Part shown: in pieces, positions 15,130 through 58,435 of the stretch
How positions within the stretch are numbered: the stretch's first letter is position 1
Layout: every line of letters begins with the position of its first letter
DNA from: an uncultured Bacilli bacterium
GTDB lineage: Bacteria; Bacillota_I; Bacilli_A; RF39; UBA660
Direction: 5' to 3'
Assembly (NCBI GenBank): GCA_944350345.1
Contig: CALVOP010000001.1
Coordinates: 62,001 to 126,000, forward strand
DNA: 64,000 nt
The notes under the pieces: model-generated
What the model saw: only the letters and a program-made list of their open reading frames with translations
Told to the model about the DNA's origin: nothing
Databases searched by the model: none
Position numbers and translations under genes: made by a program

Positions 15130-16017
15130 TTAATCAATTTCCACCTTAACATTTAATATTTCCAAAATACGTTCCAAATCCTTTTCGCTATCGAACGGAA
15201 TAATAATATTTTTATTATTTACTTTTACAGTTGTACCTATTTTCTCACGAAGAACATCTTGAACATATTGATAATTAGGATTAATTGAAGTTTTAGACTT
15301 AACAATTGGTTTATTTCTTTTATAATCATCACTTACTAATAATTCTAAATCTCTAACAGATAAATCCTCATCAATTACCTTTTGCGCTAAAGTAAAGATT
15401 TCTTCAACATCACTTAATTTACTCAAAATTCTAGCATGTCCCATTGATAATTTATCATCTAAAATTAAATTTTGAATTTTGTTAGGTAATTTTAATAAAC
15501 CCAAAATATTTGTTAAATAACTTCTACTTTTACCTATTTTTTTACTTAATTCGTCATGAGTCAAATGCAATGTTTCTAACATTTTCTTATAAGCTTCTGC
15601 TTCTTCAATTATATTTAAATTTTCACGTTGAATATTTTCTAAAATAGCGATTTCCAACATTTCCTCATCAGTGAAATCTCTAATAATTGCAGGAATTTTT
15701 TCAAGGCCAGCTTTTTTTGCAGCCAAAGTTCTTCTTTCACCGGCAACAATTTCATAACCCTTAATACTTTTTTTAACAATAATTGGCTCAATTACGCCAT
15801 ATTCTTTAATAGAAGTAGCTAATTCTTCCAATTTTTCATCATCAAAAACTTTTCTTGGCTGATAAGGATTACTTCTCAATTCACTCAAATCAATAAGTTT
15901 TACATCTTCTCGACTACTACTTTCAATAATATTTCTTTCTAGTTCATCGATATTAAAAGCTTCATTGCTGAACAGTTGTTCTAGACCCTTCCCTAACGCT
16001 CTCCTCTTCTCTTGCAT
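15130..16017 (-). CDS. parB: Chromosome partitioning protein ParB/Spo0J
   Basis: About 295 residues. Near the N-terminus RRALGKGLEQLF matches the ParA-activating peptide. ParB/Srx-like CTPase motifs follow, with NPYQPRK and VAGERRTLAAKKAG (the GERR box), then ENIQRENLN and a helix-turn-helix with SKKIGKSRSYLTNILGLLKLP. ParB binds parS, clamps on DNA with CTP and loads SMC; likely sites are the five palindromes at 49.2-49.7 kb. I favour the ATG at 16017 over a TTG at 16026, which is only three bases from the AAGGAAG ribosome site. It overlaps parA by 56 bases. Confidence 0.95.
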   Translation of the reverse strand: MQEKRRALGKGLEQLFSNEAFNIDELERNIIESSSREDVKLIDLSELRSNPYQPRKVFDDEKLEELATSIKEYGVIEPIIVKKSIKGYEIVAGERRTLAAKKAGLEKIPAIIRDFTDEEMLEIAILENIQRENLNIIEEAEAYKKMLETLHLTHDELSKKIGKSRSYLTNILGLLKLPNKIQNLILDDKLSMGHARILSKLSDVEEIFTLAQKVIDEDLSVRDLELLVSDDYKRNKPIVKSKTSINPNYQYVQDVLREKIGTTVKVNNKNIIIPFDSEKDLERILEILNVKVEID

Positions 16018-48683: not shown

Positions 48684-49085
48684 TTACCTTTTGTTTTTAA
48701 AAAAACTTTGTATTTTTTCCTTAAATATGTAGTTATCTTTTATATCAACATATTTATATTTTGTTTTAAATTGTTTAATTTTATTGTTTTTTAAAAAATA
48801 ATAAACATTATCAATTTTTGCCTCATTAATTACCGATTTACACATACTACATGGTTCCATAGTTACATATAAATCACATCCAGTCAAATGCCAAGTTCTT
48901 AATTTTTTTGATGCTTTTTTAATTGCTAAAATTTCAGCATGTCCAAGAACATCGTGATGATTATGTCTTTTATTATAAGACTTTGAAATTACTTTATTAT
49001 TATATACAATTAAAGCTGCTATTGGAACCTCATTTTTTTTATAAGCCTTTTTAGTTAATTTTAACAATACTTTAAAATAATTCAT
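48684..49085 (-). CDS. tadA: tRNA-specific adenosine deaminase
   Basis: 133 residues from the ATG at 49085, five bases after AGGAG; the open frame runs further upstream into the SRP RNA and is not coding there. The deaminase site is HAEILAIKKA (His ligand, Glu) and MEPCSMC (Cys ligands). TadA makes inosine at the wobble base of tRNA-Arg(ACG). A truncated copy of its first 23 codons is found at 49421-49516. The SRP RNA terminator lies just upstream of its ribosome site. Confidence 0.95.
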   Translation of the reverse strand: MNYFKVLLKLTKKAYKKNEVPIAALIVYNNKVISKSYNKRHNHHDVLGHAEILAIKKASKKLRTWHLTGCDLYVTMEPCSMCKSVINEAKIDNVYYFLKNNKIKQFKTKYKYVDIKDNYIFKEKIQSFFKNKR

Positions 49086-49095
49086 TTTTACTCCT

Positions 49096-49173
49096 AAAAA
49101 AAGTGCACACACGTAGTTAATGTTAAGGCTGCTATTTTCCAATTCTGACCTGATTCCATGCTACGTGTTGCAC
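49096..49173 (-). ncRNA. ffs: SRP RNA (4.5S-type), copy A
   Basis: About 78 bases. The ends pair as GTGCA-ACACGTAG with CTACGTGT-GTGCAC, followed by seven T as terminator. The apical part holds the conserved SRP54-binding elements: TCAGGTC on the 5' side, an ATT-GGAA-AAT tetraloop hairpin and AGCAGCC on the 3' side. This is the short form without an Alu domain, unlike the long Bacillus scRNA. Location beside tadA-dnaX is the usual one in Bacillota. Promoter TTGGCA-17-TATAAT directly precedes it. Confidence 0.92.
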
Positions 49174-49179
49174 AATTAA

Positions 49180-49208
49180 ATTATAATATATATTTAATAA
49201 ATTGCCAA
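49180..49208 (-). promoter_or_regulatory. Promoter of SRP RNA copy A
   Basis: Minus-strand TTGGCA (49203-49208) and perfect TATAAT (49180-49185), 17 bases apart. The -35 box abuts the parS site at 49209-49224. Confidence 0.85.
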
Positions 49209-49224
49209 TGTTCCACGTGGAACA
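49209..49224. other. parS-like site 1 (TGTTCCACGTGGAACA)
   Basis: Perfect 16-bp palindrome matching the ParB-binding parS form with a CCACGTGG core; the palindrome extends to 22 bp. It sits directly upstream of the SRP RNA copy A promoter. ParB itself is encoded at 15.1-16.0 kb. Confidence 0.88.
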
Positions 49225-49313
49225 TTGTTTTATATTTAAGAATTATGCCATAGTTTAGTAAAATAATGTTTATTTTTAATGATTTTGTTTAAAATTAAAC
49301 ATAAAAAGATTAA

Positions 49314-49329
49314 TGTTCCACGTGGAACA
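49314..49329. other. parS-like site 2
   Basis: Same 16-bp sequence as site 1; here the perfect palindrome extends to 32 bp (49306-49337). Lies in the gap between the two direct-repeat copies. Confidence 0.88.
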
Positions 49330-49420
49330 TTAATCTTCTTTTATCTTTCTATTTAAAATAAATAATAATTTGATACTAAATATATTGTTGTTTTTCGTTT
49401 TTTCTATATGTTTTTTTCAT

Positions 49421-49516
49421 TCAATGTTCCACGTGGAACATTGAAGTTGCTATTGGAACCTCATTTTTTTTATAAGCCTTTTTAGTTAATTTTAACAATA
49501 TTTTAAAATAATTCAT
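49421..49516 (-). pseudogene. tadA 5' fragment (duplicated)
   Basis: From an ATG at 49516 the first 23 codons match tadA with one changed residue (V to I at codon 6). The frame then runs into parS site 3 and stops after 31 codons. It keeps an AGGAGT-type ribosome site and lies downstream of SRP RNA copy B, but it lacks the zinc site, so it is a dead fragment. Confidence 0.88.
49425..49440. other. parS-like site 3
   Basis: Same 16-bp sequence; palindrome extends to 26 bp (49420-49445). It ends five bases before direct-repeat copy B begins, so it marks the duplication junction, and it contains the stop codon region of the tadA fragment. Confidence 0.88.
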
Positions 49517-49527
49517 TTTTACTCCTG

Positions 49528-49604
49528 AAAAAAGTGCATACACGTAGTTAATGTTATGGCTGCTATTTTCCAATTCTGACCTGATTTCATGCTACGTGTT
49601 GCAC
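49528..49604 (-). ncRNA. SRP RNA (4.5S-type), copy B
   Basis: Same fold as copy A: closing stem, TCAGGTC, the GGAA hairpin and AGCAGCC are unchanged. There are three changes inside or next to the RNA stems (gcac to gcat, taagg to tatgg, tccat to ttcat, as read on the plus strand) that keep the closing stem. Its T-run is six long. The -10 box is CATAAT instead of TATAAT, so expression is likely weaker. Whether it is used or decaying is not known. Confidence 0.8.
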
Positions 49605-49610
49605 AATTAA

Positions 49611-49639
49611 ATTATGATATATATTTAATAAATTGCCAA
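49611..49639 (-). promoter_or_regulatory. Promoter of SRP RNA copy B (weakened -10)
   Basis: TTGGCA (49634-49639) and CATAAT (49611-49616), 17 bases apart on the minus strand; the -10 box carries one change from copy A. parS site 4 abuts the -35 box. Confidence 0.65.
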
Positions 49640-49655
49640 TGTTCCACGTGGAACA
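49640..49655. other. parS-like site 4
   Basis: Same 16-bp palindrome (22 bp extended), the duplicate of site 1, directly upstream of the SRP RNA copy B promoter. Confidence 0.88.
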
Positions 49656-49702
49656 TTGAAATTATTATATTGAAAAACTATATATTTTTTAGAAAATTAA
49701 AA

Positions 49703-49718
49703 TGTTCCACGTGGAACA
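49703..49718. other. parS-like site 5 in a 40-bp perfect palindrome
   Basis: Same 16-bp core; the palindrome here is perfect over 40 bp (49691-49730) and includes the gyrA stop codon. As RNA it would form a long hairpin at the gyrA 3' end, but no clean U-run follows. Confidence 0.88.
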
Positions 49719-49720
49719 TT

Positions 49721-52144
49721 TTAATTTTCTTCCTTTTCTACCAATGCAATAGAAGTTACGAAATTATCATTTTTTACATTTATTAACTTAACTCCTTGAG
49801 TAACTCTACCCATTAATGAAATATTGTTAATATCTATTCTTATAATAATTCCGTTCTTTGTTATAATCATCAAATCACAATTTTCATTTACGGTTTTAAA
49901 TCCAATAATATTGCCATTTTTTTCGGTTATTTTCAAAGTTTTTACGCCTTTGCTTCCTCTTTTTGTTTCTCTATAATTATTAATAACAGTTTTTTTACCA
50001 TAACCATTTTTTGTAACAACCAATGCTTGCATTGAATCAGTAGCAACTTCTAACCCTACACATAAATCATTAACTAGATTTATACCTCTTACACCTGAAG
50101 CACTTCTTCCCATAGCACGCAACTCATTTTCACTGAATTTTACCATTCTACCATTAGATGAACACATAAGAATTTTATCATCTTTTTTAGATTTTCTAAC
50201 AGCTATCAACTCATCATTTACTCTCAAAGTAATAGCTAATTTTCCATTTTTGCGTATGTTATCAAATTCACTTATATTTGTCTTTTTTACCAGACCATTT
50301 TTAGTAGCAAAAATTAAATGTTGATAAGTAGTATTTCTTTCCAAAACCAAAATTGTGTTAATAACTTCATCCTTTTCAATTGGTAATAAATTTACAATTG
50401 GTAACCCTTTAGATATTCTACTAAATTCTGGAATTTCATATCCTTTTAACCTATATACCTTACCTTTGTTTGAGAAAAATAGAACATAATCATGAGTATT
50501 CAAGTTAATAATTTGCTCAACAAAATCTTCATCATTAGTTGCCATACCTTTAACACCAACTCCACCACGGTTTTGAGTTTTATAAATATTGCTATTGACC
50601 CTCTTTATATAGTTCTTGTTAGTTATTGTTAAAACAATATTTTCCTCAGGTATCAGTGATTCATCCTCTATATATTCAATTGCACTCATATCTATCATAG
50701 TACGTCTAGAATCCGAATATTTGTTCTTTATTTCAGTTAATTCGTCTTTAATAATACCTTCAACTAACTTTTCACTAGATAGAATTGCTCTCAATCGATC
50801 TATTTCTTTCAATAATTCTGCAAGTTCATTTTCAATTTTATCACGTTCTAAACCAGTTAAACGGCGTAATTTCATTTCTAAAATACTGTCAGCTTGTATT
50901 TCACTTAGTTCAAAACGTGACATCAATTTTTCTTTTGCTATCAAATCACTCTTAGACTCTTTTATGATTTTTATAACTTCGTCAATATTATCTAATGCTA
51001 TTTTTAAACCTTCTAAAATATGAACTCTTTTTTCATTTTTTTCTAAGTCAAATCTAGTTCTACGAATTATTATTTCTTTTTGATAATCAATATATTTTGA
51101 AATTATATCTTTTAAACCTAAAGTTTTTGGAACACCATTATCCAACATCAAGAAAATAATTCCAAAATTAGATTGAAATGCTGTATGTTTATATAAATTA
51201 TTTAAAACAACTTGAGGATTTGCATCTTTTTTTAAAGTTATAGTAATTTTAACACCATTTTTTAAATCAGTATGATAATCAGAAATGCCATCAATTGTCT
51301 TATTATGAACTAATTCTGCTACTTTATTTTTCAACTCTAAAGTATTAACCCCATATGGAACTTCATCTATGACGATTAAATGTTTGCCATTTTTTTCCTC
51401 AATAGTTGCTTTACTTCTTAAAGTTATCGAACCCCTTCCAGTTTCATAAGCTTGTTTAATTCCACTATTACCTAATATAATTGCGCCAGTTGGAAAATCC
51501 GGACCTTTAATATATTGCATTAAACCAAGAACATCAATATCCGGATTATCAATATATGCTATACAACCATCAATAACTTCACCCAAATTATGTGGTGGAA
51601 TATTTGTTGCCATACCCACAGCAATTCCCATAGTACCATTAACCAAAATATTTGGAAATCTTGACGGTAAAATTTTAGGTTCTTTTTCAGATTCATCAAA
51701 GTTTGGTTCAAAATCAACCGTATTTTTACCAATATCTCTTAGTAATTCAAGAGATATTTTAGATAACCTTGATTCAGTATAACGCATTGCTGCGGCACCA
51801 TATCCTTCAATATTACCAAAATTACCATGACCATCTACTAACATATATCTATAGTTAAAATCTTGTGCCATTCTAACCATTGCTTCATATATAGAAGAAT
51901 CCCCATGAGGGTGATATTTACCCATAACATCCCCAACTATTCTAGCAGATTTTTTATGTGGTTTATCTGGCGTATAACCTGATTCATACATAGAATACAA
52001 AATTCTTCTATGTACAGGTTTAAGACCATCCCTTAAATCAGGCAAAGCACGCGAAACTATAACACTCATAGAATACTCTAAAAATGATGTTTCAATTTCA
52101 TTTACAATATTATTTTCTTCCAACCTATCCCTAGTGTGATCCAT
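49721..52144 (-). CDS. gyrA: DNA gyrase subunit A
   Basis: 807 residues. N-terminal breakage-reunion domain with [20 protein letters not shown], the quinolone-region [15 protein letters not shown] (Ser and Glu at the usual resistance positions, so wild-type-like) and the catalytic Tyr in [12 protein letters not shown]. The C-terminal beta-pinwheel has NRGGVGVKG as a variant GyrA box. It supercoils DNA with GyrB. It is 10 bases after gyrB, and its stop lies within parS site 5's palindrome. Confidence 0.97.
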
Positions 52145-57040: not shown

Positions 57041-58435
57041 TTATTCACATATTTTTTTCTTTAACTCACCTATAATTTTATCAAGTTCAGAATTTGTTTT
57101 CAAATCTTTACTTATCTTTTCATAAGCATGTATTACAGTGGAATGATCCCTTCCACCAAACTCCAAACCAATTCTAGGATACGTTTCCTCAGTCATTGTT
57201 CTACATAAATACATTGCAATCATTCTAGCGTTAGCGATAACCTTACTTCGCCTTTTGCCTTTTAAGTCTTCTATATGTAAATTAAAAAATAATGCTACTA
57301 TGTTTTGAATTTTTTCAACTGTATTAGGAGCATAAATAGAATTATTTGTATAATCTTTTAAAGCTTCCCTTGCGTCATCTAGTGATAACTTTTTAATATT
57401 CATAATAGCAGAAAAAGCATGTAATCTAGTAATAGCGCCTTCTAAGTTTCTAACATCACTACCACAATTTGCAGCAATAAAATCAATAATGCTATCATCT
57501 AAATCAATTATTAAATCTCCACTTTTAATTTTATTTTTAATAATCTTTACTTTTAAATCAAATTCAGGAACTGAAATAATAGCTTTTAGTCCCCAATTAA
57601 ATCTAGTCTTTAATCTTTCTTCAAATAATTTTAAATCATCAACACTTCTATCGGAACAAATAACAATTTGTTTTTCATCATAATATAAACTATTAAAAGT
57701 GTTAGTAAATTCTTGTTGAGTTTTAACTGCTCCGACTAAAAATTGAATATCATCAATCATTAAAACATCAATATCACGATATTTACTTTTAAATAATTCA
57801 ATATAATTTAAATTATCTTCCTTATTTCCACTATCTTTAGTCAAATTTATAAATTCATTTATAAATTGTTCACTAGTTATGTACAAAACTTTTTTATTTG
57901 AATGTTGTAACAAATAATTTCCAATTGCGTGCATCAAATGAGTTTTACCTAATCCACTTTTGCCATACAAAAATAAAGGATTATACAATTTACCAGGTTT
58001 TTCAGCAACTGCCAAAGCACTACTATATGCAAATCTATTAGAATCACCAACTATAAAATTTTCAAATGTGTATTTTTGATTAAAATTAGAATAATATTTA
58101 TAGTCTTCATTTAAATCCTTATTTTGAACATCCTCATCTATGTTAATAACATCATAGTTATCAACATCATTATTTAAATTAATTTTATTTTCACTCTCTA
58201 AAATTATATCTACCGTTTGAGAAAATCCAATAATTTCAGAAAAAATATCCTCAATTAGTTCTAAATATAAATTAATTAATTGATTCTTTTGAGCTTCAAA
58301 AGGAACTGTCAAAGTAATTTTATCATCATTAATATCCAGTAACTTTAAATCTTTAAACCAAGTCTGAAAAGAAATACTAGAAATTTTAGTAATTATAAGT
58401 TTTAAAAATTTGTCCCAAATGTCACTTTTACTCAT
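57041..58435 (-). CDS. dnaA: Chromosomal replication initiator DnaA
   Basis: 464 residues. Domain I (about 1-80), a short acidic linker (about 85-125), AAA+ domain III with LYGKSGLGKTHLMHAIGNY and VLMIDDIQFLVG, and domain IV with the DNA-binding GLEFGGRDHSTVIHAYEKI. It unwinds the origin. GGGTGG precedes the ATG. Its upstream gap is full of DnaA-box-like words, so autoregulation is likely. Confidence 0.98.
   Translation of the reverse strand: MSKSDIWDKFLKLIITKISSISFQTWFKDLKLLDINDDKITLTVPFEAQKNQLINLYLELIEDIFSEIIGFSQTVDIILESENKINLNNDVDNYDVINIDEDVQNKDLNEDYKYYSNFNQKYTFENFIVGDSNRFAYSSALAVAEKPGKLYNPLFLYGKSGLGKTHLMHAIGNYLLQHSNKKVLYITSEQFINEFINLTKDSGNKEDNLNYIELFKSKYRDIDVLMIDDIQFLVGAVKTQQEFTNTFNSLYYDEKQIVICSDRSVDDLKLFEERLKTRFNWGLKAIISVPEFDLKVKIIKNKIKSGDLIIDLDDSIIDFIAANCGSDVRNLEGAITRLHAFSAIMNIKKLSLDDAREALKDYTNNSIYAPNTVEKIQNIVALFFNLHIEDLKGKRRSKVIANARMIAMYLCRTMTEETYPRIGLEFGGRDHSTVIHAYEKISKDLKTNSELDKIIGELKKKICE

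Follow-up and report, generated by a model that had tools for sequence, protein, structure and literature searches.

To our knowledge, the signal recognition particle (SRP) RNA is nearly always encoded by a single-copy gene (ffs), and work on parS has centred on its roles in partition and SMC loading rather than on any capacity, as a repeat, to reshape genomes. The usual neighbours of ffs in other Bacillota are tadA and dnaX. Short direct repeats can give rise to tandem duplications or deletions, either in a RecA-dependent manner or by slippage. At the locus described here, exchange within a parS array has likely copied the neighbouring ffs together with the start of tadA, to judge from sequence comparison, leaving one working copy (copy A) and one that drifts without evident advantage (copy B).

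Two SRP RNA genes within an origin-proximal parS array

The locus lies in a 64,000-nucleotide stretch of DNA from an uncultured Bacilli bacterium, which we refer to as the window. Its source is a draft assembly (G000) of 898 kb in 33 contigs, in which an ffh gene is also found. The gene order is dnaA-dnaN-gyrB-gyrA-parS array-ffs-tadA-dnaX. The array is within 10 kb of dnaA (57041-58435; ~9 kb away), which together with the dnaA-dnaN-gyrB-gyrA neighbours places the locus near oriC. The upstream neighbour of the array is gyrA (49721-52144, minus strand; TIGR01063, 1124.7 bits). The intact tadA (48684-49085, minus strand) encodes 133 amino acids, and its best NCBIfam match is TadA NF008113 (E 1.7e-23, under the curated cut-off).

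The array contains five exact parS 16-mers, P1 (49209-49224), P2 (49314-49329), P3 (49425-49440), P4 (49640-49655) and P5 (49703-49718), where none is expected by chance, and there are none elsewhere in the assembly. As in chromosomal ParABS systems, these are exact palindromic 16-mers clustered near oriC, within 10 kb of dnaA, in a genome that encodes ParB. The array differs from such systems in packing five sites into 510 bp, in turning over by duplication and deletion, and in having one site that adjoins the ffs promoter. Several of the sites are extended palindromes of differing lengths. P5 is the centre of a perfect 40-bp palindrome (49691-49730) right behind the gyrA stop codon that may double as a transcription terminator. 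Small as it is, the genome has two ParB-family genes (contig C1, 77376-77906, corresponding to window ~15376-15906, and 128624-129154), one of which may be Noc-like.

A repeat search identifies a single ungapped 219-nt family comprising copy A (49009-49227, minus strand) and copy B (49440-49658, minus strand), which are identical at 211 of 219 positions (96%) and so carry eight differences. A preliminary description of this DNA had given a 213-bp unit with about 97% ungapped identity; that unit has seven differences (96.7% identity), and the full repeat is 219 nt. Each copy holds a promoter, an SRP RNA, a terminator, a parS site and the first 23 tadA codons, as had been proposed. The earlier term tandem-type applies only in part, because the duplication is real but the copies are not a simple head-to-tail repeat, being separated by 212 bp (49228-49439) that contain P2 and most of P3. 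Copy A, which runs from P1 through the promoter, ffs and terminator into the start of the intact tadA, aligns with the one ffs-tadA locus present in each of five genus relatives (G001-G005). Copy B, with a duplicated promoter, ffs and a 23-codon tadA stub, ends at P4 and is absent in all five. The stub retains the tadA ATG and 23 codons and then reads into parS (MNYFKILLKLTKKAYKKNEVPIATSMFHVEH*), giving a 31-residue open reading frame (49421-49516, minus strand) whose final residues are encoded by parS. The repeat stops at the edge of a 22-bp palindrome (49206-49227), 3 bases beyond the 16-mer, and not five bases after the palindrome as first reported. The far end of copy B, overlooked at the time, also adjoins a parS (49425-49440), so that there is a parS on both sides of the copy.

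Scoring both RNAs with a covariance model, as the preliminary description had suggested, upholds its view that they are recognisable SRP RNAs. Against Rfam RF00169 (small bacterial SRP RNA; gathering score 40 bits), copy A (49087-49183, minus strand) scores 52.0 bits (E 1.9e-08) and copy B (49528-49608, minus strand) a barely sufficient 41.9 bits. Both align from the first to the last model position; the departure from RF00169 genes is the presence of two copies in cis, one of them with degraded conserved positions. Both have the GGAA tetraloop and the AGCA side of the symmetric loop, which are Ffh-binding features, and on the 5′ side of the loop both have CAGA, not CAGG. We do not regard this G-to-A variant as a special feature, since several other family members have it (for example L003, L020 and L022), which makes it ordinary and older than the duplication.

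The promoter of copy A (49180-49208, minus strand) is TTGGCA-17-TATAAT, with a -10 box kept in all genus relatives, and that of copy B (49611-49639, minus strand) is TTGGCA-17-CATAAT. The two share the -35 box and the 17-bp spacer, and the -10 box of copy B is the weaker, as noted before. The -35 box of copy A directly adjoins P1 (49180-49225), an arrangement found at the same position in G001-G005, with a -35 that starts with TTG kept across the genus. ParB bound at P1 could therefore shut off or tune the promoter of the SRP RNA.

Each of the five genus relatives carries a single ffs at this locus. The earlier claim that two SRP RNA genes are rare is borne out across the family: of 386 genomes sampled, 346 have an RF00169 match, and only G000 and a member of another genus, G302, have two on one contig. 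Of 395 genomes sampled across the class, 381 have a match; those outside the family that seem to have two copies have them on separate contigs, one lying at a contig end and another being a weak match located elsewhere. At 2/346 versus 0/~330 in the rest of the class sample, cis duplications are not significantly more frequent in the family. Second matches in G036, G027, G423, G378 and G004 were not counted as cis duplications, as they are on separate contigs and several are at contig ends; that of G004, on a 6-kb contig with a different parS type, is probably a binning error. A second match in G489 is weak (27.7 bits) and located elsewhere. Among the titles and abstracts covered by a limited literature search, which is no proof of novelty, there was no matching report on duplicated SRP RNA (4.5S) genes or parS recombination, or on parS together with SRP RNA, dnaX and tadA.

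Divergence of copy B

The differences between the copies in the promoter, RNA and terminator were polarised with G001-G005. All five are derived in copy B and none in copy A, a polarity with a two-sided binomial probability of ~0.06 for these few substitutions, and one that, at such small numbers, gives no indication of purifying selection on the copy B RNA. Of the other three differences, A has the derived state at one, in the tadA part, and B at another; the third is at the junction. The first of the five changes the -10 box from TATAAT to CATAAT and the last shortens the terminator run from T7 to T6. The remaining three are in the RNA: a G-to-A change in the GAA motif, at a position that is G in 27 of 28 orthologues; a U-to-A change after GCAGCC, where 26 of 28 have U and both exceptions have a compensating partner that copy B lacks; and a G-to-A change at the bulge of the terminal stem, where G is present in 28/28. 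Three random RNA changes would all fall on conserved columns (35 of 74) with a chance of ~0.11, and the pattern is thus compatible with unselected drift, while A shows no change. The upstream copy in G302 has lost the same GAA-motif G in an independent parallel change.

That copy B keeps the core fold, as the preliminary description put it, is too generous. At the base of the loop-bearing helix an A-U pair is lost, and the middle helix is gone from the predicted fold, whose energy is -19.3 kcal/mol compared with -21.7 kcal/mol for copy A. Copy B nevertheless still has the -35 box, a terminator hairpin with six T, the terminal stem and the GGAA loop, and with a score above the Rfam gathering threshold some function is possible. 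The strongest form of this idea, that the genome retains copy B as a working second SRP RNA gene for dosage or a specialised role, could also draw on a promoter-like site with 10 of 12 matches and on the copy having lasted long enough for eight differences from A to accumulate. We nonetheless consider it quite unlikely, because every non-coding change is derived in B, among them the first -10 base, a terminator T and three conserved RNA positions, and because no genus relative keeps a second copy. The probable state of copy B is that of a decaying pseudogene, weakly transcribed or silent, and its case is a warning for annotation, as a second ffs can pass the Rfam threshold and still probably be a pseudogene.

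Origin of the duplication

The order in G002, gyrA-P5-P4-P2-P1-ffs-tadA with parS starts 64, 111 and 104 bp apart, was taken as ancestral. The window has spacings of 63, 111 and 105 bp plus a further 215 bp that separate two copies of P4, and this additional interval is copy B. The copy was thus inserted within one ancestral parS site, which is now in two halves. Aligned with G002, the unedited window shows one 216-bp insertion; when 49425-49639 is removed and the P4 halves are closed, the two are collinear (512/579 identical, no gap longer than 2 bp).

The flanks of the two half sites identify their sources. The gyrA-side flank of P4 (TATAATAATTTCAA) is that of ancestral P4 and its ffs-side flank (TTGGCAATTT) is that of P1; this hybrid sequence is the signature of exchange inside the identical 22-bp palindrome. 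P3 duplicates ancestral P4 and is fused to the copy B tadA stub: the ffs-side flank of P4, as in G002, joins tadA codon 23. The join, AGCAACTTCAATG, derives from tadA AGCAGCTTTAATT and the parS flank AATTTCAATG with a microhomology of ~2 bp, so that parS accounts for one junction and not for both. A hybrid junction repeat with a collinear empty site, as expected of repeat-mediated duplication, is therefore found at one of the two window junctions; in G302 it is found for the whole unit. The locus resembles known duplications between short direct repeats in the edge of the unit at an identical 22-bp repeat, the hybrid repeat at the junction and a reciprocal-type deletion in G003, and differs from them in that the repeats are parS partition sites and that one junction has only ~2 bp.

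In both copies, moreover, G-C replaces A-U in the terminal stem as a compensatory change (CACGTAGC/CTACGTG), and both have CAGAATT (window 49100-49175); these features are absent in the relatives, including G002 and G003. The duplication therefore postdates the split from G003, and copy B belongs to the same lineage as copy A. This weighs against an assembly artefact in which strain variants were joined through the repeated parS palindrome. Such a join is conceivable in a 33-contig draft assembly, where 22-bp palindromes are risky for short k-mers; we found no independent assembly of the species, and viral contigs, when scanned for the tadA-parS junction, gave no match. We judge it very unlikely, however, because copy B combines the lineage changes of A with changes of its own, because the tadA-parS junction is not at a long shared word, and because G302 is an independent case with the same kind of product. 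On the sequences compared, the duplication is real, lineage-specific and parS-mediated.

The preliminary description had proposed that the parS site or its hairpin helped create the duplication. Of these, the involvement of parS stands, whereas the hybrid parS at the gyrA-side junction of copy B argues for parS-parS exchange, by recombination or template switching, over the hairpin alone. Breakage by cutting or stalling at a parS cruciform, without such exchange, would suit sites that are palindromes of up to 40 bp, but it does not predict the hybrid parS flanks seen in three genomes (the window, G003 and G302), which disfavour it, and it is very unlikely as the whole explanation; a cruciform may still have been the source of the initiating break.

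Exchange between identical parS palindromes in the origin-proximal array would thus have copied ffs and the start of tadA. This could have occurred in two steps, with P4-P2-P1-ffs-tadA(5′) first duplicated in tandem and a deletion then arising between direct-repeat parS sites, or in one, with replication switching template from P4 to P1 and returning. The resulting order is gyrA-P5-P4/P1 hybrid-ffs′-tadA stub-P3-P2-P1-ffs-tadA. Copy A would remain the working SRP RNA gene, and we expect little or no expression of copy B. We infer the order of the steps, the enzymes involved and the lack of copy B function.

Duplications and deletions in related parS arrays

The closest relative, G003, lacks exactly the P4-P2 interval; G002 with this interval removed is collinear with it (428/471, gaps of 1 bp only). 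G004 and G005 have a second copy of a segment comprising the tail of gyrA and a parS. In G302, which belongs to another genus and has a parS of the TGTTTCACGTGAAACA type, ffs lies between parS sites and is duplicated as a parS-to-parS unit of ~164 bp, giving a perfect parS-ffs-parS-ffs-parS arrangement in which the middle parS is hybrid. The repeats (1279-1459 and 1442-1624 of L122) are ~96-96.7% identical. Two members of the same genus, G076 and G370, have one ffs copy each, and the duplication in G302 is independent of that in G000. Many other parS arrays of the family hold internal duplications that include parS. Taken together, these cases indicate that parS arrays here evolve by exchange among their own repeats, and that ffs is consequently copied when it is within or beside the array. 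Two independent parS-bounded ffs duplications and a reciprocal-type deletion mean that a partition array can expand and contract and, in doing so, take a neighbouring essential RNA gene along. Duplication ends fall at parS in 19 of 54 cases, against a parS coverage of 11.9%, a figure that is biased because alignments run on through the conserved parS site and that treats endpoints which are not independent.

A broader and rather doubtful proposal is that the parS arrays of these small-genome Bacilli are intrinsic recombination hot spots, in which ParB/SMC loading or palindrome-induced fork stalling drives parS-bounded gain and loss time and again, so that essential genes nearby, such as ffs, are copied repeatedly. 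Tandem arrays of parS units are also present in other genera of the family (L003, 1624-2030; L021, 1651-2081; L024, 741-996).
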